Positions 9,535 to 62,385 of a stretch of 64,000 nucleotides of DNA are shown piece after piece (positions within the stretch are counted from its first letter, which is position 1; each line of letters begins with the position of its first letter). Under the pieces are notes generated by a model that had not been told where the DNA came from, made no database searches, and worked only from the letters and a program-made list of their open reading frames with translations. Location of the stretch: the NCBI GenBank assembly GCA_902773005.1, contig CACYCS010000050.1, forward strand, positions 1 to 64,000, in the 5' to 3' direction. The position numbers and the translations under genes were made by a program. The DNA is from an uncultured Erysipelotrichaceae bacterium (GTDB lineage: Bacteria; Bacillota_I; Bacilli_A; RFN20; CAG-826).

Positions 9535-12500
9535 ATGTTGCTAGAAGAAGTATTGAAAGCAGTCGAAGTTTTTCCTAATGACGTCGCAGTAATGGACGAA
9601 AGCGGCAACATCACCTATCGCGATCTATGGGACCTATCCCTCAAATTCGCAGGGAGATTCTCTCGCGATGGCGTAGGCAAAGGCGATTTCATAAGCATCG
9701 AACTACCAAGGAGCATCAATTACGTCGCCGCCATGATCGGCTGCTGGATGGTAGGAGCCGCCTTCGCGGCATTAGACATCTCTTATCCTTCTGATAGGCT
9801 TGACTACATCGCCGAGGATTGCGGTTCGAAGATTCGCGTCACCTCCAATTACATTGAAGGAATCGAAAACGAGCCAAAGATAGAAAAAGCATATTTCCCT
9901 TCAGGCGAGGAGAATTCCTTTTTGGTCTATACCTCCGGATCCACCGGGCGGCCCAAAGGCGTTCTTCATAGCCACCAAAGCATTTTCGATTCCGTGGTTC
10001 GCGGAGTCGAGGCCTTGGACAGCTTGAACCGCGAAAGGCGCGGGCAGATTCTAGGCGTGCCCGTCCCCTTCAGTTTCATCGTAGGCGTATCCATGCTATT
10101 TGGAGGGATGCGAGGAGGATTGCCGGTCTACATCATTCCCGTCGTGGCTCTAAGAGACCCCATCTTGATGGACAAAGTCGTGTTCGACAACAACATCTCC
10201 GTAGCTTATATGCCCCCGAAGACGCTTAAGGTATTCCGCAACGAGGGAGGTTGCCTCAAAACCGCCATCGTGGGCAGCGAAAAAGTTTCGGGAATCTATC
10301 GCGACGACATTGCGATACTCAATATCTATGGTAGCAGCGAGACTGCAGGAGGCGTCACCTATTTCCATATCGATAAAGAATATGAGAACACGCCGATTGG
10401 AAAGCCTTATGGCGGCACCAAGGTCTATGTGCTCGACGAAAATGGTAAGGAATGCGAAGAAGGCGAAATCTGCATCGCTGGCCATTTCGCGAAATGCTAC
10501 CTGAATGACCCCGTTCTCACCAAAGAAAGATTCGTCCTAAACCCATTTAAGGAGCGTGATGGCTTCGATACGCTCTACCGTTCTGGCGATATTGGGAAAT
10601 GCCTGCCTAGCGGAGACTATCTCTATGTAAACCGCAAAGACTGGATGATCAAAATCAATGGCCAGCGCGTTGAACCTGGCGAAATAGAAGCTACGATCCG
10701 CTCGGTTGGAGGGGTATTTGACGCTGCGGTGAAGGATTTCGTCGGCGCTGCTGGGCAAACCTATCTTGCCGCCTATTACGTCCTTGAAGGTGAAAAGGAA
10801 ATCGATGTCAAAGACATCAAGGCCGCTATCGCAAGCCGGCTCCCTTCCTATATGATGCCCGCCCACTTCATAAAGCTCGACAAGCTCCCGACTAACGCGA
10901 ACGGCAAACTTGACCGCAAATCGCTAAAGGCGCCAATCATCGAATCCATGGTCGAATACGTCGCTCCGCGCGATGAAGTGGAAAAAGAGCTTTGCAAAGG
11001 ATTTGAGCAAGCCCTGAATATGCCTAAAGTCGGATGCAAAGACGACTTCTTCGATTTAGGCGGGGACAGCATCCGCGTCATGGTCCTCGAGCGAATCTGT
11101 TCGAATCTGAAGTTATCGACAAAGATGATCTACGACCTTCGCACGGTGGAAAAGATCGCCAAAGCGGTAAAAGAGGCCAAGGCGGAAGAAATCGATATCG
11201 ATCTGCGCCATGGAACTTTCCCGCTTACCCAAGCTCAGCTTGGCATATTCCTTTCTTGCGAGCAGCGCGAAGGCGAGGTTGCTTACAATAACCCGATTCT
11301 GCTTCGCTTCAAGAAAGAGGTCGACGCCAAGCGCCTTCAAAAGGCCGTCGAGCAAACCGTCCTTAATCACCCTGGGCTATTTGCAAAGCCCCTGATAGAT
11401 GAACAGGGCCTGCCCGCAATCCGTTATGAAGAAGCATTTGAAAAAGAGGAGATTTGCGACCTTTACGACATAAAAGAGAGCGATTTTGCCGCAATAAAGA
11501 AAACGCTGCTTAAGCCTTTCTTCATCAAGCGGGACAGACTTTTCCGATTCGCGATCTACAAAAGCGAAGCCTGCATTAGGCTTTTCATGGACATCCACCA
11601 CATCGTCTTCGACGGATACTCCATGAAGATACTGCTTTCTGAAATCGCTTCAATCTATCACGGAACGGGTGTCGCGCCCGAAACCTTCACTGCCTTCCAC
11701 GCATCCATTAGCGAAGCAAAGGAAAGAGAAGGCGAAGGCTATGCCAAAGCAAAAGAATGGTATCTAAACACTTTTGGTGGAGTGGAAGAAATCTCTTTGC
11801 CGAAGGGAGACGAAAATGGAAACGAGACGATTTTCGGCCACAGCAAAATCGCCTTAGGCATCAGTCCACAGAAAATCAAAGAGTATTGCCTTGATCATCA
11901 GACAACAGACAACGCCTTGACCGCTGCGGCTTTCGGCTATTTGCTTTCGGTTTATTGCATGAGCAAAAAAGCGTCCTTCGCCACGGTCTACAACGGACGT
12001 CATGACGTCAAAACCGCCAGGACCGTATCGATGTTCGTCCGTACCCTGCCCGTCCTATGCGAAATCAATCCAGCCTTGGAAGTAGATGAATTCGTGAAAG
12101 CCACTAAGGACCAGATGATGGGCGCGATGGTCAACGACACCTATTCCTTCCGTGAGCTTGCGTCCGCAACCGGGTATTCCAGCGACGTTCTTTTCACCTA
12201 CCAAGGCGATTTATTCGAGGTTCCGAATTGGGGAGACCTAACCTGCGAAAGAGAGAGCATTGAGTTCAACGCAACCGGCGAGAAGCTGTCCATCCAGCTT
12301 TACCCATTAAACGGCAAGCTCATCCTCGACATCCAATACCATGGCAACCTATATAGCGAGAAATGGATTTCCGATTTTGCCTCGCGCTACGAAAAAGTAC
12401 TAAGCGCATTCCTATCTGCCAAAACGCTAGGAGAGGTCGCGCTTGTCGACTCAAAGGAAGAGAAAAAGCTCCTCGCTTTGTCCTACGGAGGCGATTTGCC

Positions 12501-15500
12501 TTTTGACAAGACAAAAACGTTCGTGGATTTAGTGTCTAAGAGCGTATCTAGATTCCCCACTCACCGCGCCGTCGTCGCAAAAAACGGCGTCTATACCTAT
12601 TCGAATTTGGACCTTGCGTCAAATATTATCGCCAACCATCTAGTTAAGATAGGCGTAAAAGAAGGCGATTTTGTCGCACTTAAAATGAGTCGAATCAAAG
12701 AATTCGAAGCAGCGATTCTAGGCGTCATGAAAGCCGGTGGCGCATACGTTCCCGTCGATCCGGCATACCCAGAAGAGCGAATCGCCTATATGGTCGAGGA
12801 TTCCAAAGCAAAGGCGCTTCTAACCGATGAAAAGGTGGCTGCGATTCTTGAGGCGGAAGAAAACAAAGATCCGATCAACCTTTCGAAGCCCGATAGCCCA
12901 GCCTATATGATCTACACATCAGGCTCCACAGGAAAACCAAAAGGCGTGGTAATCCGCCACGTCTCTTTGGCTGCATTCGTGGCTTGGAATATCGAAGTGT
13001 TCCATTTGACTCACGAATCCGTCAACGGCGAGCACGCAAGTTTCTCTTTCGACGCATCGGTTGGCGATTTGTTCCCCGTGTTGGCCGCAGGCGGCGAACT
13101 CCATATTCTTGGCGAAGACCTACGCATGGATTTGGATTTGATCTACGAATATCTGCAAGCCAATAAAGTGACAGGGTTAACGATGTCGACTCAAATCGGG
13201 TTATCCCTTATTAACGCCCATCCGGATGTCGGGCTGCAATACATGATTTGCGGCGGTGAGAAGTTTCTCCCTACCGCCAAAACCAAAGTCAGGATGGTCA
13301 ACGGCTATGGCCCAACCGAATTCACCGTCTGCTCCTCGTTCCAATTCGTGGACCAAGAGAAGGAAGGAGATGTTCCTATTGGGCGCGCTGTCCCAAACTC
13401 CTACTCGCTCATCTGCGATCAAAACGGGAATCTATTGCCTCAAGGAATGACAGGCGAGCTTTGCCTGTCCGGAATTCAGATCAGCCAGGGCTACTATGGC
13501 CGCGATGAACTAAACAAAGAAAAATTCGTCGCGCGGCCTTTCCTAAACGGCGAGAAGATGTATCGCACAGGGGATCTTGCAAGATATAACGAGGACGGAG
13601 TTCTTGAGTATCTTGGCCGAATCGACTTCATGGTGAAGCTCCGCGGCTTCCGCATCGAGCTCGGGGAAATCGAAAGCGTTGCCTCGCGCTTTGAAGGCGT
13701 GAAACAAGTCATCGCGCTAGTGAAGAACAAGCAAATCGTCCTCTACTTCACCGCCGATCGAGAAATCAACACAGCCGAACTCAAGTCGTTCATGGCATCT
13801 AGCCTGACCGAGTACATGGTTCCGAACGTATTCATGCAGCTCGATACTATGCCGCTCAACCCCAGCGGAAAGATCGATCGCAAAGCATTGCCGGAGATTG
13901 AAAAAACCGGTGCAGAAACCATCCCTCCACGCAACGAAGATGAGAAAAAAATATTCGAAATCCTTGCAAAAGTAATAGGAAATGAGGATTTTGGGGTCGA
14001 AGATGACTTCGGCGATATCGGGCTTACCTCGCTAAGCGCGATGCAGTTCTCCTCGCTTCTAGCATCCACCCTCAATAAGCCATTGAGGGCCAGCGACCTA
14101 ACAAAGTACCCGACCATCGCTTCCCTCGCCAAGCACCTTTCCGTTGCTCAATCGGAAGAAAGCTATGCTCTTCAGGAAGATTATCCTCTTACGATGGCCC
14201 AGCGTGGCATCCTTACCGAGGCCATGGCCCATCCTGGCACTACGATATATAACATTCCCGTCGCGATAGAGTTGCCCAAAGCAATCGATCTCATAAAGTT
14301 TGAGAATGCGATTTCGGAAGCTATCGACGCACATCCATATCTAAAAGGTCGAATCGTTGCAAACGACGATGGCGACTTCCGCATAAAGAGGAACGACGAA
14401 TCTAAAATCGAGATTGCCCATGTCGATCTTGATGCGCTTGAAGGTGGAGCGCAGGTAATGGTCAAGCCATTCGATGTCATCGGCGGCGAGCTCGTAAGAG
14501 CCGCCCTCCTCCTCGGAAAGGATAGGAACGTCTTCTTCTTTGATGCCCACCACATCGCATTCGATGGCGAATCGCTTGATGTCCTGATGAACGACATCAA
14601 CGATGCTTATATGGGCAAGACGCTCCAAAAAGAGTCTTTCAGCGAATTCGAATACGCCTTAGCCGAGGAAAAATATCGCCAAGACGGAGCGCTCCAGGAA
14701 GCCAAAAACCACTACATGTCTCTCCTCGATGGTCGAGATGTCGACTGCTTGCTCATCAAAGATATCCAAGCTAGCGGCATCGGCAAGCAAGAGATAAATC
14801 TCGCTATGCGCGCCGATCAAAAGCAAATCGAAAAATATCTAGAATCGAACAAGACCACAGTCAATACGCTTTGGATTTCTGCTTTAGGCGTAGCGATCGC
14901 GAAATTCCTCCATCGCGAAGACGCCCTCTACACAACCGTATATAACGGGCGTGGCGACGCGCGCGTAAAGCGCGATGTCGGCATGTTCGTCCACACCCTT
15001 CCCGTAGTTGCTGAGCCTTATAAGTCTCCTGACGCTGCAACGTATGTGAAATCGATGGGCGAGCAAATCCAAAATAGCATGGCCAATGATATCTATAGTT
15101 TCATGGAGATCGCCCATGACTTCGGAGTCAGGGCCGACATACTGTTCGTCTATGAAGGAAAAATCGCGCAGGGCTATCAGCTTGGCGGAATCGATATTCC
15201 TTCTGCGGAATCGCTTTCCCCCGATGAAATGAAGGCATCGATTTTGCTTGCGGTAAGCGATTCCGAGAATGGCTTTGGGCTGCATCTAGAATACGATGGC
15301 GACGCTTTCGAAGCGTGGAGCATGTCTTCTTTCCTAAACGCGGTCGTCGCTTGCTTCAATGCGATCCTGCAAGGCAAAGACCTGAAGAAGCTTTCCTTGC
15401 TTTCTGCTCACGACAGGAAGATCATTGACGCTTCTAACGCAACCGAGGTCAAAATCGAAAAAGACGACATCGTCACCTCGTTCCGAAAAATGGCTAAGCG

Positions 15501-18381
15501 TTACCCTGACAACATCGCCATTATATATAAGGATATAAAGCTGACCTATGCCGAAGTGGACGAGACAACCGATCGAATCGCAGAACGGCTTCTCCAAAGC
15601 GGCATTGGAAAAGGCAAAGTCGCTTCGGTTCTAGTCTCTCGCAGTCAGAACATGGTACTATCGGCTCTAGGCGTCCTCAAAACCGGCGCCGCTTACCAGC
15701 CGCTCGACTTCTCTTATCCTACCGATAGGCTCCTATTCATGATTAAGGACGCCAATGCCGCGATGCTCATCGCTGATAGGAATCTCATGGACCGCGTTCC
15801 AGGGTGCAATCTCGACGTTCTATACACCGAGGATTTCGCTGGGTTGCCTGCGAAAACGCATGACCTCCCCCACACAAATTGGGATGATCTATTCATATTG
15901 CTTTATACTTCTGGCACGACTGGAACCCCAAAAGGCGTTATGCTCAAGCATTCCAACCTCGCTAATTTCTGCGCTTGGCACCACCGCTATTATGGTCTAA
16001 GCGAGTCCTCCGTCGTATCAGCATACGCAGGATTCGGTTTCGACGCCTGCATGATGGACCTTTACCCCGCGCTTACAGCCGGAGCCGCTGTCTGCATCGT
16101 CCCCGACGAGCTAAGGATGAATCTATCCGACCTCAAGGATTATTTCGCCAAGAATCGCGTCTCGCATTCTTTCATGACGACTCAAGTTGGTAGACTTTTC
16201 GCAAGCGAGCATCCCGAATCAAGCTTGTCTTACCTCTCCGTCGGCGGAGAAAAGCTCACTCCCGTTGAACCGCCAAAAGACTACAAACTCATCAATGGCT
16301 ATGGTCCAACCGAATGCACGATATTCTCGACCACCAAGTGGGTCGACCGCATTTATCCGCGCATCCCGATAGGCCAGCCTCTAGACAATTACAAGCTGTA
16401 TGTCGTCGACGAAAGCGGCAATGAAGTCCCGCTCGGCGCTCTTGGGGAACTATGGATTTCAGGCTTAGGCGTTGGCGAAGGATACCTTAATCAGCCAGAG
16501 AAAACCGCGCAATCGTTCATCAAGAATCCCTTCTCTGACCAGCAAGATTACGCTCGCGCATATCGAAGCGGCGACATCGTCAGGCGACTTGCCGATGGAA
16601 GCATCGACTTCATTGGAAGAAACGACGGTCAGGTCAAGGTTCGCGGATTCCGCATCGAATTGTCCGAGGTCGAAGTGGCGATTCGTAGTTTCCCGGGCAT
16701 CAAAGACGTCACCGTTCAGGCCTTCGACGCCGAAGGCGGCGGAAAGTTCCTAGCCGCTTATTTCACTTCCGACAAGCATATCAATATCGAGGACATCAAG
16801 CAGCATATCCTCGCCGATAAGCCATCTTACATGGTGCCCGCAAGCATCATGCAGCTCGACCAAATCCCGCTCAACCAAAACCAAAAGGTCAATAAGCGCG
16901 CACTGCCTAAACCCGTATTCGATCAAAAATCCAGCGAGTACGTCCAGCCGAGTTCGCCTGCAGAAAAAGATTTCTGCACGATCTTTGAACAGGTCCTTGG
17001 TCTAGAAAAAGTCTCTGCAGACGCAAGCTTCTTCGATTTGGGCGGTACCTCGCTTACCGCGGCCAAAGTCGTGATATCCGCGATGAACAAAGGCTATAGC
17101 GTCTCCTATCAGGATATCTTCTCGCACCCAACCGCAATCGAGCTGGCCGCCTTTGCCACCAATGCGAAAAAAGAAGACGAGGCGAAACCCGAAACCAATG
17201 AAATCGCGTCCGAGCGCGAATCATTGAAATATAACGTCGTGGCCCATGTTGATGAAATCGTCGCCGAGCGAAAGATCGGCCGCGTCCTGCTAACGGGGGC
17301 GACGGGCTTCCTTGGCGTGCACGTCTTCAGGGAATTGCTTGAACGCGAGACCCCCACCATCATTTTGGTTCGCGGAAAAGGCATCGACCCCATAGCGAGG
17401 GCGAAAGGCCTTCTCATGTACTACTTTGATGACACCTTCGACGATGTCTTCGACCGCTTTGTGAAAGTCATCGATGCTGACATCACCGATGAAAACCTCT
17501 TAGATAAACTCGGCGGCGAACAATTCGATACGATCATAAATGCCGCCGCAATCGTCAAGCACTTTGCAAGCGACGACTCGATCGAGCGCGTCAATCATGG
17601 AGGGGTGAAAAACCTCATCAAAGTCGCGGAAGCGAAGAAAGCAAGGCTAATTCAAGTCTCTACCATTTCCGTAGCTGGAGAAAACATCGGCCACAAATTC
17701 CCGGAAACCTTCGCAATGAAGGAAAACCAACTCTATTTCGGCCAGGACCTATCCAACAAATACGCCTCCTCAAAATTCAATGCGGAGGATTCGATTCTAA
17801 CAGCAATAGAAAAAGGCGAACTAGACGCCAAAATCATCCGCGTGGGCAACCTCATGGGTCGCCAAAGCGATGGCGAATTCCAGATCAATAGCATCACCAA
17901 TGCCTTCATGCGCAACCTGCGCGGATATAAGGCTTTGGGCAAATTCCCAATTTCGATGCTAGACGGCAAGGTCGACTTCTCGCCAATTGACGAGATTGCC
18001 AAAACCATCTTGCTGCTTGCCGAGACGCCAAGCCGATTCACCGTCTTCCATAGCTACAATTCCCATATGGTTCAAATGGGCGACGTGATCGATGCGATGA
18101 ATCTCTGTGGCATCCATATCGATAAGGTAAGCGACCAGGAATTCGCCATAGCGATGCGCGAAGCGATGCAAGACGAGAGCCTAAGCGAAATCGTTTCGCC
18201 ACTGCTCTCCTACGCAAGCAGCGACAACCTCTCCCACGAATTCATTCCTGCCGACGCCACTTACTCTGTAAAGGCGCTATACCGTCTCGGATATCGCTGG
18301 CCGATCACCGACTTCGAATACCTGATCAAAGCGATCGAAGCGCTGGATACGCTTGGCTTCTTCGACGGGAACGACATGTAA
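9535..18381 (+). CDS. Three-module non-ribosomal peptide synthetase with reductive release
   Basis: 2948-residue cytosolic assembly line. Domain order: A1 (about 1-455), T1 (carrier Ser512), C1 (about 555-985, HHIVFDG 688-694), A2 (about 990-1455), T2 (Ser1499), C2 (about 1540-1970, HHIAFDG 1672-1678), A3 (about 1975-2450), T3 (Ser2506) and a terminal NAD(P)H-dependent reductase (about 2575-2948; GATGFLG 2588-2594, YxxxK 2743-2747). There is no thioesterase, so the product should leave as an aldehyde or alcohol, or cyclise to an imine or pyrazinone. A2 and A3 keep the amino-binding Asp (1173, 2170). A1 has FSFIVG at that place, so it may load a non-alpha-amino acid. Residues read as specificity codes: A2 D-A-G-T-I-G-G-V-C-K (aromatic or hydrophobic likely), A3 D-A-M-F-S-G-G-I-F-K (unclear). 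AAGGAG precedes the ATG. No carrier-protein activating enzyme is in the window. Confidence 0.92.
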   Translation: MLLEEVLKAVEVFPNDVAVMDESGNITYRDLWDLSLKFAGRFSRDGVGKGDFISIELPRSINYVAAMIGCWMVGAAFAALDISYPSDRLDYIAEDCGSKIRVTSNYIEGIENEPKIEKAYFPSGEENSFLVYTSGSTGRPKGVLHSHQSIFDSVVRGVEALDSLNRERRGQILGVPVPFSFIVGVSMLFGGMRGGLPVYIIPVVALRDPILMDKVVFDNNISVAYMPPKTLKVFRNEGGCLKTAIVGSEKVSGIYRDDIAILNIYGSSETAGGVTYFHIDKEYENTPIGKPYGGTKVYVLDENGKECEEGEICIAGHFAKCYLNDPVLTKERFVLNPFKERDGFDTLYRSGDIGKCLPSGDYLYVNRKDWMIKINGQRVEPGEIEATIRSVGGVFDAAVKDFVGAAGQTYLAAYYVLEGEKEIDVKDIKAAIASRLPSYMMPAHFIKLDKLPTNANGKLDRKSLKAPIIESMVEYVAPRDEVEKELCKGFEQALNMPKVGCKDDFFDLGGDSIRVMVLERICSNLKLSTKMIYDLRTVEKIAKAVKEAKAEEIDIDLRHGTFPLTQAQLGIFLSCEQREGEVAYNNPILLRFKKEVDAKRLQKAVEQTVLNHPGLFAKPLIDEQGLPAIRYEEAFEKEEICDLYDIKESDFAAIKKTLLKPFFIKRDRLFRFAIYKSEACIRLFMDIHHIVFDGYSMKILLSEIASIYHGTGVAPETFTAFHASISEAKEREGEGYAKAKEWYLNTFGGVEEISLPKGDENGNETIFGHSKIALGISPQKIKEYCLDHQTTDNALTAAAFGYLLSVYCMSKKASFATVYNGRHDVKTARTVSMFVRTLPVLCEINPALEVDEFVKATKDQMMGAMVNDTYSFRELASATGYSSDVLFTYQGDLFEVPNWGDLTCERESIEFNATGEKLSIQLYPLNGKLILDIQYHGNLYSEKWISDFASRYEKVLSAFLSAKTLGEVALVDSKEEKKLLALSYGGDLPFDKTKTFVDLVSKSVSRFPTHRAVVAKNGVYTYSNLDLASNIIANHLVKIGVKEGDFVALKMSRIKEFEAAILGVMKAGGAYVPVDPAYPEERIAYMVEDSKAKALLTDEKVAAILEAEENKDPINLSKPDSPAYMIYTSGSTGKPKGVVIRHVSLAAFVAWNIEVFHLTHESVNGEHASFSFDASVGDLFPVLAAGGELHILGEDLRMDLDLIYEYLQANKVTGLTMSTQIGLSLINAHPDVGLQYMICGGEKFLPTAKTKVRMVNGYGPTEFTVCSSFQFVDQEKEGDVPIGRAVPNSYSLICDQNGNLLPQGMTGELCLSGIQISQGYYGRDELNKEKFVARPFLNGEKMYRTGDLARYNEDGVLEYLGRIDFMVKLRGFRIELGEIESVASRFEGVKQVIALVKNKQIVLYFTADREINTAELKSFMASSLTEYMVPNVFMQLDTMPLNPSGKIDRKALPEIEKTGAETIPPRNEDEKKIFEILAKVIGNEDFGVEDDFGDIGLTSLSAMQFSSLLASTLNKPLRASDLTKYPTIASLAKHLSVAQSEESYALQEDYPLTMAQRGILTEAMAHPGTTIYNIPVAIELPKAIDLIKFENAISEAIDAHPYLKGRIVANDDGDFRIKRNDESKIEIAHVDLDALEGGAQVMVKPFDVIGGELVRAALLLGKDRNVFFFDAHHIAFDGESLDVLMNDINDAYMGKTLQKESFSEFEYALAEEKYRQDGALQEAKNHYMSLLDGRDVDCLLIKDIQASGIGKQEINLAMRADQKQIEKYLESNKTTVNTLWISALGVAIAKFLHREDALYTTVYNGRGDARVKRDVGMFVHTLPVVAEPYKSPDAATYVKSMGEQIQNSMANDIYSFMEIAHDFGVRADILFVYEGKIAQGYQLGGIDIPSAESLSPDEMKASILLAVSDSENGFGLHLEYDGDAFEAWSMSSFLNAVVACFNAILQGKDLKKLSLLSAHDRKIIDASNATEVKIEKDDIVTSFRKMAKRYPDNIAIIYKDIKLTYAEVDETTDRIAERLLQSGIGKGKVASVLVSRSQNMVLSALGVLKTGAAYQPLDFSYPTDRLLFMIKDANAAMLIADRNLMDRVPGCNLDVLYTEDFAGLPAKTHDLPHTNWDDLFILLYTSGTTGTPKGVMLKHSNLANFCAWHHRYYGLSESSVVSAYAGFGFDACMMDLYPALTAGAAVCIVPDELRMNLSDLKDYFAKNRVSHSFMTTQVGRLFASEHPESSLSYLSVGGEKLTPVEPPKDYKLINGYGPTECTIFSTTKWVDRIYPRIPIGQPLDNYKLYVVDESGNEVPLGALGELWISGLGVGEGYLNQPEKTAQSFIKNPFSDQQDYARAYRSGDIVRRLADGSIDFIGRNDGQVKVRGFRIELSEVEVAIRSFPGIKDVTVQAFDAEGGGKFLAAYFTSDKHINIEDIKQHILADKPSYMVPASIMQLDQIPLNQNQKVNKRALPKPVFDQKSSEYVQPSSPAEKDFCTIFEQVLGLEKVSADASFFDLGGTSLTAAKVVISAMNKGYSVSYQDIFSHPTAIELAAFATNAKKEDEAKPETNEIASERESLKYNVVAHVDEIVAERKIGRVLLTGATGFLGVHVFRELLERETPTIILVRGKGIDPIARAKGLLMYYFDDTFDDVFDRFVKVIDADITDENLLDKLGGEQFDTIINAAAIVKHFASDDSIERVNHGGVKNLIKVAEAKKARLIQVSTISVAGENIGHKFPETFAMKENQLYFGQDLSNKYASSKFNAEDSILTAIEKGELDAKIIRVGNLMGRQSDGEFQINSITNAFMRNLRGYKALGKFPISMLDGKVDFSPIDEIAKTILLLAETPSRFTVFHSYNSHMVQMGDVIDAMNLCGIHIDKVSDQEFAIAMREAMQDESLSEIVSPLLSYASSDNLSHEFIPADATYSVKALYRLGYRWPITDFEYLIKAIEALDTLGFFDGNDM

Positions 18382-29160: not shown

Positions 29161-32100
29161 TTATTGATTAGTCTCTACCGAGAGTTCTTCAGTAGGGATG
29201 GAATCGTGGTAATAGCGAACATCGGCGAAATGCATCGTTCCGCTTACGTTCGTGATCTCGGCGCATGTGTAGCCCGATTTGTATTGATTCGAGAATGCGG
29301 AGAAATCGATTACGACGCGGTACCAAACGTCAGCCTGAAGAGCATCGACTTTGGTGCCGTCAAGATAGAACGAAATGTTATCGTTTGGCCCCGTTGCCTC
29401 AGCAATCGGTGAAGTCGTCGATAGTTTCAGGTTGACATGCGAACCATTAGGCGCAACGCAGGCGATTCTGCCAGTAGTTCCTGAACTCAGACGAATGGCA
29501 TAGCTCACGTAAGCGATGTGGCCTGCGACGATTCGTTTATATGAGTCGGCGGCTTGGTCGTGGCGAGTCGACTCGACGTCAAGTTTATTGTTCCAGCTCG
29601 CGACATCGGCGTGGTAGCGATAAGAATTCACAACTCCGTCAATCGTCTCCGTTTCCTTTTCGTAGGTAGCGGGATTATTTGCGTCGCTTGCAACGATTGT
29701 CATCGCGCCCATGCGATAATGGTCAAACACCGTCACGCGCACGCTGTCCGAATAGGTGATTCCGTCGCTTAGGAATGACAGCGTCACCGTTGCAACACCC
29801 ACGCTCTTACCGATAATGGTGCCTTCGATGATCTCTATTGCATCGGCATCGCCTTCTATGGACACGTTGAGATCAGAGAAGGAAAGAGGGTTCTTGTTAT
29901 CGATGGCCGTGAACACGATGCTATGCCTTTTCTCGAAGTAGCTGCTGTCCCCGCAATGCAAGGTCACCTCGTCTTCCGCAATCGACAGGTAGGTTGGCCG
30001 ATATACGCGGAAGCGAATCCTTCCTTCCTTCGACTTTTGGTTGCAAGTCACAGTGAATGTGATGGTAACTTCTCCTTCTCCATCCAGAGCGACCACCGAC
30101 CCAGTGACAGAGGCAATCTCGCTATCCGCAAAGGCATCGGTTATTTCATATTCATCCGTTGCAAGGGAGCCATAATAAACACTGATTTGATCGCGGATAT
30201 CATGCGTTTCTTCCAAATAGGCATAATCCACGTCGGTCACGATCAAACGAATGGGGTCCTCTTGCGAAAGGTCATCGAAGAAGCTCTCGTCTTTGTAATA
30301 TGCAATATCTTGGATTTCAAAGATAGCATCCCCGCTCGAAGTTAGATATGCGGAGGAGGAACTCTTTCCATCTATCCTGACGACAATGTCAATTGTCTCT
30401 CCTTCGGGGATAGTATCGATGGGGGCTCCGTCTACGAATAGTTTGACGAAGGGACTTGAAACGAACGAGTTAGCGGCGAGAGAAATATGAACGAATGACC
30501 CTGTTGAATAGTTATAGACGTAGAGAAGCGGCGTGCCACTTATGTGCTTGTAGGTGAAATGGAAGTAGGTATAACCTCCGGAAACCGCGGTTCCATGGAT
30601 CAAACTATACGGTTCGATCTTACTACGTGCCTCGCGGTCCATCGCCTTTGCGCTTGTGCTGTCATATGTCCACGCCCCGGAAGAACCCTTCTCGAAAGAG
30701 ATATAATTCGGCGAATAGACTACGAATTCATCATCGGTAATGGCTCTATTTTCGTTCGTCTCATCAACTGTCAATCCACGCACGCGCCTATCATAGACGC
30801 GAGTAATTGAATCAAGCATGGAGAAGTCATAGTGGTAACGAATGTTGTCAAAATAGATTGCATCCCCAACAAAGCAAGGCGCGCAATATAGCGTAGAGCT
30901 TGTTTGTCCAGCCGCCATGTTCATGGTGATAATCGCCTCGATGTCCATGACGACGGTCAGCCAGGTATTGTCGACAAGGGTATTCGTGGCATTCCCGTTC
31001 GCATCCACGATGAGAATGTCATCGCGGTTGACCTGAACGTCATTGTAGAAATAAGAATTCGCACCGGTGCCATACGCGCCCATGAGGATTCCTTTCTGGC
31101 CCGTGTAATAGATGTCGAAAGATAGCAACGTATAGCCTTCATCTACAAGATGCTGATATTGCGATACGCCATTTTTTGTCGTCGTCTCATAGAATTCAGC
31201 ACGAGCATTCCAGGCGGCCCAAACAGGGTTAGCCGAATTTTGGTTCGCCGGATCATCCATGATTTCAAATTTCAGGACGCCGTCCCTTCCGGCGAAGTCG
31301 GTGACTGTCTTATCGATGACGGCTCCGGGCTGAATTTCAATCTCTTCCGATTCCGATTTCTCATCAAACGATGGATAAAGGGTCACTGAAATATCCTCTT
31401 CTACTTCGTTCACGGATTTTGGGGACACCTTGCCTTTCACCATCAAAGGCGCAGGGCCCTCATAAGGTGAAGAAACAAAGATCTTGTTCCCTTCCGTCAC
31501 AAGATAAGGATTTGCATCAAGGGAGACTTCAAGCTGAACATCCTTCAGCTCTCCGCGCTCATAATATTGACCATCCACTTGGGCTTGGTTCTTTTTGACT
31601 GGGGCATCTTCGTTTACCGAATAGACTTCAAATTCGTTTTGTTGAAGTATCAGAGCTTTTTCTTGGCGCACATGCGCAGTGAACGTTTTTTCCGCAAGCT
31701 CTTTTCCCTTCCATGTGCCGGTGATTTTGACCAAGGCGTCCCCGACGTTTCTCCCGCGTAGACTATTGTCATCTACCACTTCGATAACGTCAGAAGCTTC
31801 GGTAACCAATTCGAATTCGAAGAGATCGTATAACTCACCATCGTAGCGGACCTTAGGCATTACTTCAGTTAACGCATTCACAAAGCAATCAATGTCTTCG
31901 ACCACGATATTTGGGGTCTTCAATTGATTTTTCGCGACGATCCTGCATGTACCTTTCCCAACAGCAGAGGTCGCCGTGATGATGGCTTCGCCGATTGTTC
32001 CTTGGCAGGAAACATGGCCAAATTCATTAACTTTCGCGATGCTGGCATCGCTAGATTCCCAACTCACCTCCCCCGTAAAATTAAGCACGGATAGGTCGTA

Positions 32101-32313
32101 TTCGGCGAAGATGTCCAAAACGATCTCTGATTCGCTCAGTATCAAATCGATTTTCACTTCGTCGGAAGAAGGAACAGGTGCGAATTCGCTCGTCATTGAA
32201 GGCGACGAATCTTTACTCGAATCCGTCGGTGAGGAAGGCGCGGCCTCCGTTCCGCCGGAGCAGCCTGCCAAAAGCAAGGCACACAACCAAATTGGCACAC
32301 TCTTTTTGTTCAT
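29161..32313 (-). CDS. Large surface lipoprotein with Ig-like and beta-sandwich modules
   Basis: 1050 residues, lipobox LAGC (Cys18), S/P-rich linker, then bacterial Ig-like (Big_2-type) domains: about 55-130, with VSWESSDASIAKVNEFGHVS as the signature, and further Ig-like stretches near 720-880. Two or three beta-sandwich modules follow the scheme seen in the neighbouring 664-residue protein: (D/N)xWxxVVxD, then FxDxRYxH (about 330-510 and 890-1040). No catalytic motif was found. A role in binding polysaccharide at the cell surface is inferred from context. It overlaps the beta-helix gene upstream by 4 bp. Confidence 0.82.
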   Translation of the reverse strand: MNKKSVPIWLCALLLAGCSGGTEAAPSSPTDSSKDSSPSMTSEFAPVPSSDEVKIDLILSESEIVLDIFAEYDLSVLNFTGEVSWESSDASIAKVNEFGHVSCQGTIGEAIITATSAVGKGTCRIVAKNQLKTPNIVVEDIDCFVNALTEVMPKVRYDGELYDLFEFELVTEASDVIEVVDDNSLRGRNVGDALVKITGTWKGKELAEKTFTAHVRQEKALILQQNEFEVYSVNEDAPVKKNQAQVDGQYYERGELKDVQLEVSLDANPYLVTEGNKIFVSSPYEGPAPLMVKGKVSPKSVNEVEEDISVTLYPSFDEKSESEEIEIQPGAVIDKTVTDFAGRDGVLKFEIMDDPANQNSANPVWAAWNARAEFYETTTKNGVSQYQHLVDEGYTLLSFDIYYTGQKGILMGAYGTGANSYFYNDVQVNRDDILIVDANGNATNTLVDNTWLTVVMDIEAIITMNMAAGQTSSTLYCAPCFVGDAIYFDNIRYHYDFSMLDSITRVYDRRVRGLTVDETNENRAITDDEFVVYSPNYISFEKGSSGAWTYDSTSAKAMDREARSKIEPYSLIHGTAVSGGYTYFHFTYKHISGTPLLYVYNYSTGSFVHISLAANSFVSSPFVKLFVDGAPIDTIPEGETIDIVVRIDGKSSSSAYLTSSGDAIFEIQDIAYYKDESFFDDLSQEDPIRLIVTDVDYAYLEETHDIRDQISVYYGSLATDEYEITDAFADSEIASVTGSVVALDGEGEVTITFTVTCNQKSKEGRIRFRVYRPTYLSIAEDEVTLHCGDSSYFEKRHSIVFTAIDNKNPLSFSDLNVSIEGDADAIEIIEGTIIGKSVGVATVTLSFLSDGITYSDSVRVTVFDHYRMGAMTIVASDANNPATYEKETETIDGVVNSYRYHADVASWNNKLDVESTRHDQAADSYKRIVAGHIAYVSYAIRLSSGTTGRIACVAPNGSHVNLKLSTTSPIAEATGPNDNISFYLDGTKVDALQADVWYRVVIDFSAFSNQYKSGYTCAEITNVSGTMHFADVRYYHDSIPTEELSVETNQ

Positions 32314-42070: not shown

Positions 42071-42805
42071 CTAAACTTCCAAAAGTATCGATTTTTTTCT
42101 ATTTTTTGAAACGTAAGTGTAGATTTTCTCAATCTCCAAACTATCAAGTGCTTGATAAGATTTCGAAGGAACAACTCCAAGTTTGAGTCTTTTTTCATTC
42201 ATGAGATTATGCGTGTTGAAAACCTCGGTTAAGGCGTTTGGATCATCCTCGATAAGTTGCAAGCGCGCCGCCACCTGTTCCATCGAGCCGTTCAGCGTAT
42301 TCATAATCAGCCTGTATCTGTGGGCTACCTTCGATTTTTTGAGTAAAGAAAGATTCTCAACGAACCAATCAAACCTGTCATAACCCAAAATGGATTCGGC
42401 GTCAGACTTGGTCCCCACTTTGATGTCAGCGCATATAAAGTCCGCGAGAGAAAGAGCGAGTCGAAATTTCTCCTTGGAGACGAACATCGACGTTTCGAAG
42501 CAAATGGTTATCCCGGTTTTGCGAAGATCTTCAATTAGTGGCCGAATCTCAAAAACGGAATTAATTGGTTCCCCGCCAGAAAACGTCACCCCACCATCTT
42601 TGCCGTAAAACGGGAGATCGCTAAGACACTCACCGAAAAGGCTCGGCAAGTCAGCGTCAAAAACCTCACCATTAGGGTAAACCCCTTCTGGATTGCAACA
42701 CCACGGACAGCGCAGCGGGCAGCCAAAAAGGAAGATCGTGGTCCGTATCCCTGGCCCATCATCTAGGCAAAAATGCTGTACATTAAAAACTTTGGCCACG
42801 GACAT
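42071..42805 (-). CDS. Glycyl radical enzyme activase (radical SAM)
   Basis: 244-residue radical SAM enzyme that puts the glycyl radical onto its partner. DDGPGIRTTIF is the activase signature, followed by the cluster motif CPLRCPWC (Cys29, Cys33, Cys36, CX3CX2C), FSGGEP and the later D-I-K segment. It has no ferredoxin-like insert with extra clusters after the first motif, so it belongs to the short, PFL-activase-like class. The gene overlaps the end of the radical-enzyme gene by 23 bp, making that the obvious substrate. Confidence 0.92.
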   Translation of the reverse strand: MSVAKVFNVQHFCLDDGPGIRTTIFLFGCPLRCPWCCNPEGVYPNGEVFDADLPSLFGECLSDLPFYGKDGGVTFSGGEPINSVFEIRPLIEDLRKTGITICFETSMFVSKEKFRLALSLADFICADIKVGTKSDAESILGYDRFDWFVENLSLLKKSKVAHRYRLIMNTLNGSMEQVAARLQLIEDDPNALTEVFNTHNLMNEKRLKLGVVPSKSYQALDSLEIEKIYTYVSKNRKKSILLEV

Positions 42806-44633
42806 TTTTCGCCCTTTCGATTAGGAGATCCTTATATTCGATTGGGAGGTCGTTGAAATAGCTGCTGAAGCCCCAAACGCGGACAATCAGATTCTCATGC
42901 CTTTCAGGGTGCAACTTTGCGTCAACAAGCGTCTCAAAGTTTGTCACGTTCATTTGGAACTCATAGGCTTGGCTATTACAGCATCCGCGGAGAAATTGCA
43001 GACCGAATTCGGGATGAGAAGAAAATAGGCTCGCATCGAAAAACGAATCGATTACATTTCCATTCACGCAGCGCGAAGGCAAGTCGAGGCTACGGAAAAA
43101 ATAGATAACATCCAGAGGAGAAGAGGCGAAGTCGTTGGAGACATGCACGCCATATGGGGCATTGGCTTTTCTTCCATCAAAAGACGCGGGGTTCTTGCTT
43201 CCATAGGCCAAGTAATTGGATGAGGACAACCCAAAGTAGAGCGACTCGCCATGGTCGCCAACGCGGCATTCAAGCACTGCGTCATTAGTAATCTTTAAAA
43301 CCCGATTCGTCATTTCGATGGCTGCCCGGCTGCGCGATCCAAAGCAATTGGTACGATCCACAAGCTGTTCAGAATCAAACCCCTCAAAATTGGCTTTGCG
43401 AATTGCGTTTAACTGCGCAATCGTCAGTTTTCCCTCTTTGAAGCAAAGGCGGTCAATTGCCAGAATGCCATTTACGCAATTTGATAAGCCCGTCGTTAAG
43501 AAGCCCACGTCATAATGGCACGCCCCACCACCTCCAATCGTCTTTTTCCTTTCTCTGCATGAGCGGATGAAAAGCGACTCGATTGGCTCTTCCTGCCAGG
43601 GGCCCGAGCGAAGCTTCGACAGTTTTTCCGAAATCGCATCTCTCAAGCAATCGAATACCCCGGAAAGACGATCTCCTCCTTTGCTTAGCATAAGTTCAAC
43701 CGCCTCGTTCAGTGCTTCAGCAAAGTTCAGGTCATAAAGATTATTTCTACTTACCGCCTTTCCACACGCAAAGGGCTCCCAACAAGCCGAAACGGCGTAA
43801 TTATGAGCGTCTTCCGCGGTATAACCTGCATCAATAAGGGCGGGAATGACGCGCTCGTCGTTCGCCATGATTGGGCTTCCCGACCCGCTTTCTATGAGTC
43901 TTGATGCAGAGGACAAAACGGAATCGGGCGTCTTTTGGGAATAACGTAGCATGAGCTTTGGATCTGGCAAATGCAGCTCGGTGAGCGCGGAAATAAACAA
44001 TTCGGTTAATCCATTCGATTGGTCGTTTCCCCTTTCGTCGGTTCCCCCAAGAATAATGATCTGTCCAGTGTCGCCCAGCAATTCGTTGCTCTTGTTTTTG
44101 TAATAGCGATGAAGTGTCAGGAGGAATTCTTTGATAATCTCGAGGCAATTGGCCCGTCCGCCTTCCGCGAAATACTTCAAAAGCCATTGGTCGAGCCTTC
44201 CTAGCCCGACTAAGTGATGTCCGAATTGCCACTGAAGCGAATTGATGAAAAGAATTCGTTGAAGGGCATCGAACATATCCGTGGCCTTTCTGAGTTTGAG
44301 GCCTAGCAGGGATTCCACTTGCCGTGGATCCGCACAAACGGAAGCACATCGGTCAATATAGTGGAAAAGACTTAATCGTAAATCGACATAACGCTTATCG
44401 AAACGAGCAAAATCGCCGAGCAATTCTGAAAGAGACGAATCAAGAACAATGGAGTAATCCAAACACATATTGGAAGCGGATAAGCCTTCAGCATCGAAAT
44501 TGAATTCTGGAGCAAGATAATAAAAGAATCGCCCCTCGCTTTTTGTTGGATGCAAGTCATCTAAAAGTCGACACGTGGATTTGAATTCATCTGCGTCAAA
44601 ATAGGTTCTTACGGCAATGCCTTTGGTATTCAT
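42783..44633 (-). CDS. Short, divergent glycyl radical enzyme
   Basis: 616-residue PFL-family enzyme, well under the usual 750-850. The active-site loop reads SACWEPFACGK with Cys284; the following Glu matches the C-x-E-P pattern of dehydratase/lyase types rather than the double Cys of pyruvate formate-lyase. The radical site lies in VRVWGFSSYF, with Gly588 near the C-terminus, where most families have VRVSGY. The first Met that follows GAGGAG at good spacing is at 44633; 15 extra codons upstream are possible. It heads the sugar locus, divergent from the AraC gene. It may eliminate a group from, or cleave, a sugar-derived compound; the substrate is unknown. Confidence 0.85.
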   Translation of the reverse strand: MNTKGIAVRTYFDADEFKSTCRLLDDLHPTKSEGRFFYYLAPEFNFDAEGLSASNMCLDYSIVLDSSLSELLGDFARFDKRYVDLRLSLFHYIDRCASVCADPRQVESLLGLKLRKATDMFDALQRILFINSLQWQFGHHLVGLGRLDQWLLKYFAEGGRANCLEIIKEFLLTLHRYYKNKSNELLGDTGQIIILGGTDERGNDQSNGLTELFISALTELHLPDPKLMLRYSQKTPDSVLSSASRLIESGSGSPIMANDERVIPALIDAGYTAEDAHNYAVSACWEPFACGKAVSRNNLYDLNFAEALNEAVELMLSKGGDRLSGVFDCLRDAISEKLSKLRSGPWQEEPIESLFIRSCRERKKTIGGGGACHYDVGFLTTGLSNCVNGILAIDRLCFKEGKLTIAQLNAIRKANFEGFDSEQLVDRTNCFGSRSRAAIEMTNRVLKITNDAVLECRVGDHGESLYFGLSSSNYLAYGSKNPASFDGRKANAPYGVHVSNDFASSPLDVIYFFRSLDLPSRCVNGNVIDSFFDASLFSSHPEFGLQFLRGCCNSQAYEFQMNVTNFETLVDAKLHPERHENLIVRVWGFSSYFNDLPIEYKDLLIERAKNVRGQSF

Positions 44634-44723
44634 TTGCATCTCCTCGGGATTATTTGGAAACCGCTGTTCCTTCGGCATGATTATCGTTCAATCCATTGGC
44701 TGGAACTACCTACAAAGCAAAGA

Positions 44724-58774: not shown

Positions 58775-61700
58775 TCATTCAGAAACGGCTACAGTTAGCG
58801 AGGCACAGTTCCAATAGTCTTCTCGGCCGAATTCAAGGATGTACGTCCTTCCGTTGAAAATAATGCTTTGCGTGAACCCATCAAATTTCAAATCCGGGAC
58901 GGCCGTGTCATCGTTAGCGACTCCAAAATGGCATATGAAGCCACCCTCAGGAAGTGAGTCGAGGTTTACTCTTATTTCCATATACCCATAACCGAAATCG
59001 AGGAATTCAAAGGCTGGCGCATATTTATTCCATCCAGCTGGGTATACGTTATTGTTGTTCTGGAAATCGAGTTTCCAATTCAAAGAGCTAATTTCGGCGA
59101 AAGAGCAATTCGCATAAGAAATTCCAAACGCCAGACAAGGCGTGTTTCCATCGACGAGTAAACTGACGGCATTGACGGCATACTCCATTGGTGGCACCGG
59201 CTTATTTTCGATGATTAGCCCAATATTTCTCCAATAGTTCTCTCCGTCGAAACTCCCGTTCGGATTGCAGACAAGTCCATAGTTCGCCCCATTCAAGTCC
59301 ATGCCTACGTTTACTTCCTGAGGAAGGGTATTATCGACCGCGTAATTGACACGCCACCCAAAACGGATTACGTAATGCCCTGAATAAAGGCCGCTGATGT
59401 CATAGTCCAAAGTGTAGTTATTGCCCGTGACGGTGAGTATGCCTTCCTTTTCCATCAAGTAATGCATGCCTTCATTGAAAGAGCCTGCGTCAAGTTCGGG
59501 ATTGACCTGGGCATCAAAACACTTGGGCAAATCCCTTAACTCTTCCTCAGACATGTTTTCAAATGTCCCGATAAACCTTATATAAGGAACCCCGTCGATC
59601 TCTACCAAAGTAGCGTCTTGAACATCAACTACTTTTGACGCTTCAACAGGATCATCGACGAGAATCCCAATCGTTGAATTATAGGATCCTTGCTGATTCT
59701 GAAGATCCTCGTTGGTTTCCAAAACATATGTTTTGTTCCCTATGATAACGGGCGTTTTATCAATGGATTCTTGATTAAAACTGAGGACAAAGCCGTTCGT
59801 TTGGAGCCAGAGATCGAAATGCCCCACCCTTAGAACATTGAGCGACATGCGAAAGATGATTGCGTTAGACGCGACTTCCGCAACGAAAGCCTGCGCATCA
59901 TATCCTTCCAAGCCATTCTCATATTCATCAAGGGCGTCGTTATGGAAAGCGTAGCAATGCCACCCCAGAGATTCAATATCCGCAGCGCCCGAATTGTCAG
60001 AAGAAATTCGGACGGAGAAATATGGAACCCCATCAATATTTTCAATGAATGCGTTATCGATTGTTATATGGACATCTCCGGTGGCGGAAAGCACTTTTAC
60101 TTTAACGTCCATCGAATAGCAAACCAGGAAGCTGGATTTGATTTCGACATGAAGCCAAACGCCTTCATGCTCCTCAAAATCGCGATTCGGCCAAAGCAAC
60201 CCATCCGAACCTACACTCAGATATTGCCATCCTTCATCGATGATGGAATAACGAACATCAAACGTGTACCCATTGCCTTCCGCTGTTATCGGTAATTGCA
60301 CGCCTTCCGATAAGCCGGATGCCAAAGGAACGAAACTGGAGGAAATGGAATTGTACGCAGCTTCGGCGGCCTCAGAGTATCCTTCCGGAACTTCCACGAC
60401 CAGCTGTCCATAGTACATGGCGGCCGTGTCCGAGGAAATGTGTTTCAAGAAGCCGCGGAGCATGATGATATCGCCCGGATTGATTGTCACATCGTATAGA
60501 TTCGAATACGAGCAGGTGAGGCTAATCGACGGATCGTTCAGATCGTATAGATAAATGCTCGTCCTGTAGGAATCACTTCCCAAGTAGTTCCGTTCCACCT
60601 TACCCTTGGCCTGATAGCAGGCAGAAGCAGAGCTATTGATCGGAAGTCCGTTTGCGACCTGAACCGCCTCGGCTACGCTGACCTCGACGGGATTCGCATA
60701 CCAATCTCCCCCTTCTTCCAGGACGGTGATCTCCGGGGAGCCATTATCTTCGGCGACGCCTTTATAGTTTCTGACCTGCGTCTTGACCAAAACGTGCGCG
60801 CCCCTTGTCAATTTGGCGACATTCGCATCGCTGGGCTTATAGATTTGGAAAAGTTCGCTGCTAGGCACAGAATCTTCGAGATCCGGGCTTCCAGCAAGAA
60901 CGTAGATGGAGTTCTCCCTTCTTATCGCATAAGCCTCAAACTCATAATAGTCGCGGCTTATCTCACTATGAGACAACGCCATTGCGGCCGCAACGGCTTC
61001 TTCAATCGTTACCTGATAAGTCTGCTGCGGAGCGCCCGCTCCCTTTTCCACGATGGAAACTTCCCCAAGGACTATACGCGGGCCGTTGTACCAGCTGAGG
61101 ATTCCCTTTTCGACCGATACGATGTCCCCCACTTCGATTTTGCTGCCCGAGATAATGTTGCCGTTCTCATCGAGATCGGCCCAAGTGCGAAAAGCTTCCG
61201 CGTTCATATACCTTGAATCAATCCTTGCGGTGACCGAAGGCCCTGATTCCGAGCCTAAGGTAAAGGAGAAGGAGAAAGAACCTGTGGAACTACTTGGCGG
61301 AGTAATCGACGAGACCCATAGGCAATCCGAGGAGAACATGCGCCCGCCGACGTAACGGGCCTCTTCAAGGTAGGTATCGACACTCAAATAAAGGGGTTCA
61401 ATTCCAAAAGCCTCCGGAATCACCTTAACTTCGCTCGGATCGATTTCGCGAAGCCCGCAATATTCAAGAACGGTTCCGCGAACAGCCACAGATTGGCCAG
61501 GGGAAACGCCCCAATCCAGCCTAGTGTATACTTCGCAGGCATAAGGGCCGCTTTGTATGAAGAAAGAAGGACCATAAAGTGCGGTCACCACACCGGTGGT
61601 ATAGATTGAGGAGTTTAATTCAAGATCCCAAACTTCTTCTAGTGGGACGGGCGATTCAGCGAGGAGGTGAAGGGGGAGCGTGCCGCTAGCCATGACCATA

Positions 61701-62125
61701 GACCCTAGCATCACGTCAACCCCGATGCCATAATCGAAGAAATAATCTCCGTCTATGCCTTTTGGGACAATGGTCGATCCTTCCATACGCACATAGGGCA
61801 AGGCGGCGGGTTCAATCGTGTAAACGAAGTCGAATCGATATCCAGCGACTTCATCCCCATCGGGAAGGGCGAAATTCGAAGATATGCCTTCCGTAAGGAT
61901 GTCCACGTAATCGCTATAAAGCTTTTGAAGTGCGTCTTCGGCAAAAGATGCATAGGGCGGTTCGCCGGGCTCCTCGGGAGAACTAGAAGCCTGGTCCAGC
62001 GGAGAATCGTGCGATTCGACCGCGGGATCGCTTTTAGAAACATTCGTGAAAGGATTGCTTGCAATCCCGCAAGAAGCAAGAAGCATCCCGAATATGCCAA
62101 ATAATGGCAATAGGCGTTTTTTCAT
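58775..62125 (-). CDS. Large surface lipoprotein with OB-like and beta modules
   Basis: 1116 residues from the Met that begins the signal peptide (12 extra codons upstream rejected). Lipobox LASC (Cys19), S/P/E linker, then several OB-fold-like segments (about 160-240, 270-360, 375-480, 490-590) with the pattern Y-x-GxVxxxY...GDxxxxRG. Three repeated beta modules follow to the C-terminus (about 680-830, 850-970, 980-1110). Each begins near IDGVPYF/DGNTPCLAF and ends in NKTYVLE/NGRTYILE strands. It shares its N-terminus and module ends with the neighbouring leucine-rich repeat lipoprotein. No enzyme motif; a binding function is likely. Confidence 0.8.
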   Translation of the reverse strand: MKKRLLPLFGIFGMLLASCGIASNPFTNVSKSDPAVESHDSPLDQASSSPEEPGEPPYASFAEDALQKLYSDYVDILTEGISSNFALPDGDEVAGYRFDFVYTIEPAALPYVRMEGSTIVPKGIDGDYFFDYGIGVDVMLGSMVMASGTLPLHLLAESPVPLEEVWDLELNSSIYTTGVVTALYGPSFFIQSGPYACEVYTRLDWGVSPGQSVAVRGTVLEYCGLREIDPSEVKVIPEAFGIEPLYLSVDTYLEEARYVGGRMFSSDCLWVSSITPPSSSTGSFSFSFTLGSESGPSVTARIDSRYMNAEAFRTWADLDENGNIISGSKIEVGDIVSVEKGILSWYNGPRIVLGEVSIVEKGAGAPQQTYQVTIEEAVAAAMALSHSEISRDYYEFEAYAIRRENSIYVLAGSPDLEDSVPSSELFQIYKPSDANVAKLTRGAHVLVKTQVRNYKGVAEDNGSPEITVLEEGGDWYANPVEVSVAEAVQVANGLPINSSASACYQAKGKVERNYLGSDSYRTSIYLYDLNDPSISLTCSYSNLYDVTINPGDIIMLRGFLKHISSDTAAMYYGQLVVEVPEGYSEAAEAAYNSISSSFVPLASGLSEGVQLPITAEGNGYTFDVRYSIIDEGWQYLSVGSDGLLWPNRDFEEHEGVWLHVEIKSSFLVCYSMDVKVKVLSATGDVHITIDNAFIENIDGVPYFSVRISSDNSGAADIESLGWHCYAFHNDALDEYENGLEGYDAQAFVAEVASNAIIFRMSLNVLRVGHFDLWLQTNGFVLSFNQESIDKTPVIIGNKTYVLETNEDLQNQQGSYNSTIGILVDDPVEASKVVDVQDATLVEIDGVPYIRFIGTFENMSEEELRDLPKCFDAQVNPELDAGSFNEGMHYLMEKEGILTVTGNNYTLDYDISGLYSGHYVIRFGWRVNYAVDNTLPQEVNVGMDLNGANYGLVCNPNGSFDGENYWRNIGLIIENKPVPPMEYAVNAVSLLVDGNTPCLAFGISYANCSFAEISSLNWKLDFQNNNNVYPAGWNKYAPAFEFLDFGYGYMEIRVNLDSLPEGGFICHFGVANDDTAVPDLKFDGFTQSIIFNGRTYILEFGREDYWNCASLTVAVSE

Positions 62126-62385
62126 ATGCGTGCCCCCTAAAGCTCTAGTGAAGTATATCACGCGCGTGGCTCAACTTGAGATACCAATTTCGGTTTGCCC
62201 AAAACTAGTTTTGGGGCGCGTTCCCAAAAAACTATGGGTGTTTGGCCAAACGGGCATTGCCCAGCGCACGGACATAGAAGCGAAACGCATCGCCCCCATT
62301 TCCCCTCAGCCATAGACAATGGTCTGCCCAATCTCTCTTTCCAATAGAGGCAGGCCATCGAAATGCCCAAAGAGGAAATCCGAGC

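Follow-up and report, generated by a model that had tools for sequence, protein, structure and literature searches.

A reductase-terminated nonribosomal peptide synthetase predicted to load a non-amino acid through its first adenylation domain, and its relatives in rumen and gut microbes

The nonribosomal peptide synthetase (NRPS) gene at positions 9535-18381 (plus strand) of the window, i.e., the whole 64,000-nucleotide stretch analysed here, is, judged by its sequence, a real and intact synthetase and a variant of an already known gut class. We propose that it probably forms an assembly line for an N-acyl dipeptide aldehyde, in which the first adenylation (A) domain would load a free carboxylic acid, two condensation (C) domains would extend the chain, and a terminal reductase (R) would release the product as an aldehyde. 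Aldehydes made by gut NRPSs are already known; the variant part is the loading module.

The gene is a single uninterrupted frame of 2,948 aa, with an AAGGAG ribosome site about 8 bases upstream of its ATG. Matches to the Pfam families AMP-binding (three), Condensation (two), PP-binding, and NAD_binding_4, together with custom HMMs, give the order A-T-C-A-T-C-A-T-R (T, carrier domain), which confirms the architecture originally claimed. All domains lie on the plus strand: A1 (9547-10944), T1 (10957-11169, with Ser512, codon at 11068), C1 (11212-12489, HHIVFDG), A2 (12532-13914), T2 (13927-14154, Ser1499), C2 (14182-15429, HHIAFDG), A3 (15466-16929), T3 (16936-17169, Ser2506), and R, an NAD(P)H-dependent thioester reductase (17212-18378). 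The three carrier serines, the A10 lysines (Lys458, Lys1446, and Lys2451), and the HHxxxDG motif of both C domains are all in place, as are the TGxxGFLG motif (TGATGFLG), STIS, and the Tyr2743/Lys2747 pair of R. Relatives retain these catalytic motifs wherever the alignment reaches, except for an archaeal locus (L056), whose C1 reads SHxxxDG, and L036, whose R reads AGATGFLG. Because full-length relatives at a best-segment identity of 56-62% retain all nine domains, the architecture is not a product of chance.

The feature that sets the loading module apart lies in the A1 pocket. Position 235, which is Asp in amino-acid A domains, is occupied in A1 by Ile182 (codon 10078-10080; FSF-I-VGVS) in two alignments to LgrA, one made with MAFFT and one with phmmer. 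The original prediction had placed Ser here; the loss of Asp235 stands, but a Ser at this position is ruled out by both alignments, since the Ser in question (Ser186) sits at position 239. A2 and A3, in alignments with relatives and LgrA, both have Asp235, as had been stated. The full codes are IVSYAVIGGK for A1, DAGTMCGVCK for A2, which we take, with low confidence, as likely aromatic amino acid, and DAMFLVGIFK for A3, presumably, again with low confidence, likely aliphatic amino acid; the A3 code is nearly unchanged among close relatives from Bacilli to Bacteroidales. The predicted structure of A1 (pLDDT 91.7) matches NRPS A domains with a Z of about 45, and a confident model with a normal NRPS A-domain fold indicates that A1 is probably a normal and active member of that class. 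As a guide to substrate, the fold search did not discriminate, its matches being NRPS A domains with many different substrates. Among the pocket residues of starter A domains, position 239 is especially variable, and different family members may accordingly be predicted to load different acids.

The same departure from the amino-acid code was seen across the family. In one scan of GTDB genomes, 80 loci were kept, judged by their record titles to come mostly from rumen or gut, and relatives occur in Bacilli, Clostridia, Bacteroidota, and methanogenic archaea of these habitats. The A-T-C-A-T-C-A-T-R order recurs in Bacilli and Clostridia metagenome-assembled genomes (L035, L036, L043, and L097; best-segment identity 55-62%), in Ruminiclostridium (L042; 46%), and in rumen methanogens (L054, L056, L057, and L070; 39-40%), T1 being missed by the custom HMM in L054 and L057. 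The A-T-initiated architecture is thus widespread rather than a rarity, and the novelty of the window NRPS is reduced, because its loading rule is common to the whole family. Position 235 is Ile, Val, Leu, or Cys in nearly all A-T didomains that start a chain in these relatives, whereas all A domains downstream of a C domain in the related loci have Asp235. In two ORFs (L095:2547 and L102:9956), the first domain is an A domain that has Asp, but each adjoins a separate A-T-C gene whose A domain has Leu or Val, so that the starter has probably been split off into a gene of its own; the other seeming exceptions are ORFs truncated at the end of a contig or locus. In the tree of A domains, 30 of its 32 starters, from bacteria as well as archaea, cluster together (support 87). 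A single clade for all starters was not recovered, L095 and L102 being placed elsewhere in the tree. At L099, L100, L114, L102, and L095, the starter A-T or A-T-C is a separate gene adjoining the NRPS-reductase gene, an arrangement that suggests loading in trans.

Within the family of the window genome, A1-type starters are sparse, with matches at E 1e-80 in 13 of 224 genomes, and most are stand-alone A-T-C proteins about 1,000 aa long. One such protein, with a hydrophobic residue at position 235, is encoded at L131 (5950-8997, plus strand; genome G152), where a C-A protein follows two genes later; similar ORFs were found in six other genomes (G143, G180, G199, G234, G244, and G249), with position 235 hydrophobic where it was read. 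The closest A1 orthologue, 50% identical, is that of G201, a genome of the same genus, and by its coordinates and ORF length, L043 seemingly represents the same contig as that orthologue's (G201:C48).

The first C domain points in the same direction as the A1 code. A tree built from 53 C domains places C1 among those that come after a starter A-T or stand first in their protein, whereas elongation C domains, among them C2, fall apart from this clade; a more careful tree of 18 C domains gives the same clustering (99/99), so that C1 groups with starter C domains at a local clade support of 98-99 (98% SH-aLRT in the larger tree), the reference in both cases being first-position C domains of relatives rather than characterised ones. 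Three close relatives from the gut (L037, L044, and L053) share C1-A2-T2-C2-A3-T3-R with the window NRPS at 49-73% identity but start with the C domain. Over bootstrap trees of the 18 domains, three switches between an A-T start and a C start are needed, and forcing the three C-first rows into one clade gives p = 0.059 in an AU test; repeated loss of the A-T didomain within the closest clade is suggested by these sequence comparisons. A degenerate A-T ahead of the C-first relatives was ruled out, since tblastn found no remnant upstream. Because a C1-type domain seems to work both with and without a preceding A-T, C1 would most simply take an acyl donor, in agreement with the A1 code, and it looks like a starter-type C domain that accepts a non-aminoacyl donor. 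The best PDB matches of C1 are ordinary multimodular synthetases, which speak neither for nor against a starter role.

Taken together, starters without Asp235, elongation A domains with it, and a starter-type C1 support the claim that the chain begins with a non-amino acid, and they bear on two other substrates for A1. One is an alpha-keto or alpha-hydroxy acid, which would yield a keto- or hydroxyacyl-capped dipeptide aldehyde. The keto-acid A domains HctE/HctF and HapC do have Val235 (PMC4558948), which resembles the Ile/Val of the A1 family, but in these enzymes a ketoreductase (KR) is embedded between A8 and A9 (PMC4558948), and no KR insert was found at that place in A1 or in its 28 aligned relatives. 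A KR-embedded keto-acid module was accordingly rejected for A1, even though its Asp235 is replaced, and with C1 clustering among first-position starter C domains we regard a keto- or hydroxy-acid start as unlikely. The list of keto, hydroxy, aryl, and fatty acids originally offered for unit 1 is thereby narrowed towards its fatty and aryl members. The other substrate is an alpha or beta amino acid, activated despite the missing Asp235, which would give a tripeptide aldehyde able to cyclise. A1 is, by sequence and fold, a true NRPS A domain and lies nearest to amino-acid A domains; against this, Asp235 is gone in nearly all starters while being retained in all elongation A domains, and C1 is of the starter type. 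The codes of beta-amino acid A domains carry Asp at position 236, where the A1 group has Val or Ala. An amino-acid start is therefore judged very unlikely.

On the preferred reading, the substrate of A1 would be a free carboxylic acid that lacks an alpha-amino group, with fatty and arylalkyl acids the likeliest candidates, and A1 would load it on T1. C1 would then acylate a probably aromatic amino acid supplied by A2, and C2 would append a probably aliphatic residue supplied by A3. R would finally cleave the T3 thioester with NAD(P)H to yield an N-acyl dipeptide aldehyde, which should inhibit serine or cysteine proteases, and the carriers would be activated by an Sfp-type phosphopantetheinyl transferase (PPTase) encoded elsewhere in the genome (contig C90). 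The acid, the residues, the two-electron mode of release, and the biological target are the parts of this line that we infer. Since the cap would be non-amino, the product should not cyclise through an N-terminal amine, and the imines and pyrazinones listed earlier among possible products would, if unit 1 is indeed non-amino, have no route through such an amine.

The domain order and the intact R motifs support a three-unit line with reductive release, as had been proposed. A four-electron reduction to an alcohol, or an aldehyde that serves as the intermediate of a further cellular reaction, appears quite unlikely. Two- and four-electron reduction are not separable from the R-domain sequence alone, but R is closest to the solved structures 6vtj/6vtz and next to the R domain of AusA, whose place among the best matches argues against an alcohol. 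The closest characterised products also argue for an aldehyde: ruminopeptin from Ruminococcus bromii (PMC12327764) and N-octanoyl-Met-Phe-H from a Clostridium cluster (PMC8518294) are both N-acyl dipeptide aldehydes of gut NRPSs, and peptide aldehydes of this kind inhibit serine and cysteine proteases (PMC10548850).

Rumen genomes in general are rich in NRPSs, with 5,346 clusters in 8,160 genomes (PMC8241843), and the window NRPS, being multimodular and thioester reductase-terminated with its catalytic residues intact, fits the gut NRPS-reductase family. Like the synthetases of the rup cluster and BGC0001686, which are likewise from the gut, it combines two amino-acid modules and a terminal reductase with a predicted N-acyl cap, and the C-A-T-C-A-T-R core of gut aldehyde synthetases is also seen in its close relatives (L037, L044, and L053), to which C1, A2, C2, A3, and R all match. 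The suggested kinship to gut peptide-aldehyde synthetases in another lineage thus holds, the host belonging to Bacilli rather than Clostridia. In synthetases of the rup, BGC0001686, and Guo et al. 2017 family, a starter C domain comes first. In contrast to these lipoinitiating enzymes of the ruminopeptin type, the window NRPS starts with A-T and would have its cap loaded in cis by that didomain. The best NCBIfam equivalog match is the aureusimine synthetase AusA (NF047350), whose R domain is related, but the window NRPS does not reach the cut-off of that model (1,422.9 vs 2,500 bits); AusA has two modules, and the A1 of the window NRPS lacks Asp235. Activation of a free acid by an A domain has a described counterpart in gut Coprococcus, where OaaA loads oleate on a carrier (PMC13142362). 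By its description, the OaaA/OaaACP/OaaC system of Coprococcus eutactus, in which a carrier receives a free fatty acid for use by a starter-like C domain (PMC13142362), is comparable to the proposed loading step, but it consists of three separate proteins, uses a free amine acceptor, and has no reductase, unlike the window NRPS.

The neighbours of the window NRPS include a PLD-family gene, an amidohydrolase, a tyrosine phosphatase, and genes for sugar uptake and polysaccharides; no NRPS-type neighbour was found among the window genes examined. Elsewhere in the window, a PFL-like glycyl radical enzyme with its class of substrate unassigned (42783-44678, minus strand) and two proteins that no Pfam family matched (1,050 aa at 29161-32313 and 1,128 aa at 58775-62161, both minus strand) were noted. 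Contamination of the contig was rejected: each of the 31 genomes of the genus has a homologue of the adjoining PLD gene, and the one in G201, a genome that also has the A1 orthologue, is 61% identical, so the contig fits its genome. The claim that no tailoring, export, or carrier-activating gene adjoins the synthetase is correct for the window locus, but the label 'orphan' does not carry over to the family, in which adjoining regulators are usual. Flanks of 8 kb or more were available for 60 relatives. Of these loci, 51 have a SpoIIE-type gene in the flank (a few of which may be HATPase-only), 48 have a STAS gene, and 14 have a PPTase; most of these genes directly adjoin the synthetase. With four SpoIIE genes in the 2.3 Mb window genome, about 0.03 SpoIIE genes per 20 kb would be expected by chance. 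Samples of these neighbours were confirmed by Pfam; of six further SpoIIE-type matches, five were SpoIIE and one, outside the 60 (L089), was a MatE-HATPase protein. SpoIIE-type genes, often with a HATPase domain, and STAS genes accompany the synthetases in Bacillota, Bacteroidota, and archaea alike (including L035, L037, L042, L044, L053, L054, L056, L057, L070, L097, L063, and L079). The window locus is an exception, without the adjoining regulators or PPTase usual in its relatives.

A comparable setting has been described in Methanobrevibacter ruminantium, whose NRPS has serine phosphatases on its flanks, together with an anti-sigma factor antagonist (Leahy et al., PMC2812497). Its mru0068 has two C-A-T modules and, per the Figure S8 legend, a thioester reductase, although its release domain is named a thioesterase in the main text (PMC2812497). 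The flanking regulators of mru0068 resemble the neighbours of most relatives of the window NRPS; mru0068 itself is archaeal and has no A-T start, and the window locus has no such neighbours.

A broader reading, less likely than not, is that an acid-loading A-T didomain has been plugged in or lost before a conserved starter-type C domain, as part of a capped aldehyde system, generally SpoIIE/STAS-wired, of rumen bacteria and methanogens. If the preferred reading of the synthetase is right, the cap would be chosen by a dedicated A domain that takes free acids, which would make it predictable and link the product to acids that abound in the rumen. A loading domain and regulatory neighbours common to bacteria and archaea would point to a shared ecological role rather than to the product of one species. 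Archaea have no sigma factors, so there a SpoIIE-phosphatase/STAS switch would have to act by another route.

Several further loci show variations of the same parts. The window genome encodes a second NRPS (L127, G000:C92, 3-2554, minus strand) with an A-T-C start and the A code VAIFLVIFAK; it is cut by the contig end, and a STAS gene lies directly before it. In Butyrivibrio, Oribacterium, and other Clostridia (L045, L046, L047, and L048), R-terminated synthetases with tandem C-C and up to six A domains occur, and at L089 (7642-9597, plus strand) a MatE transporter fused to HATPase_c_2 adjoins the NRPS of a Methanimicrococcus.
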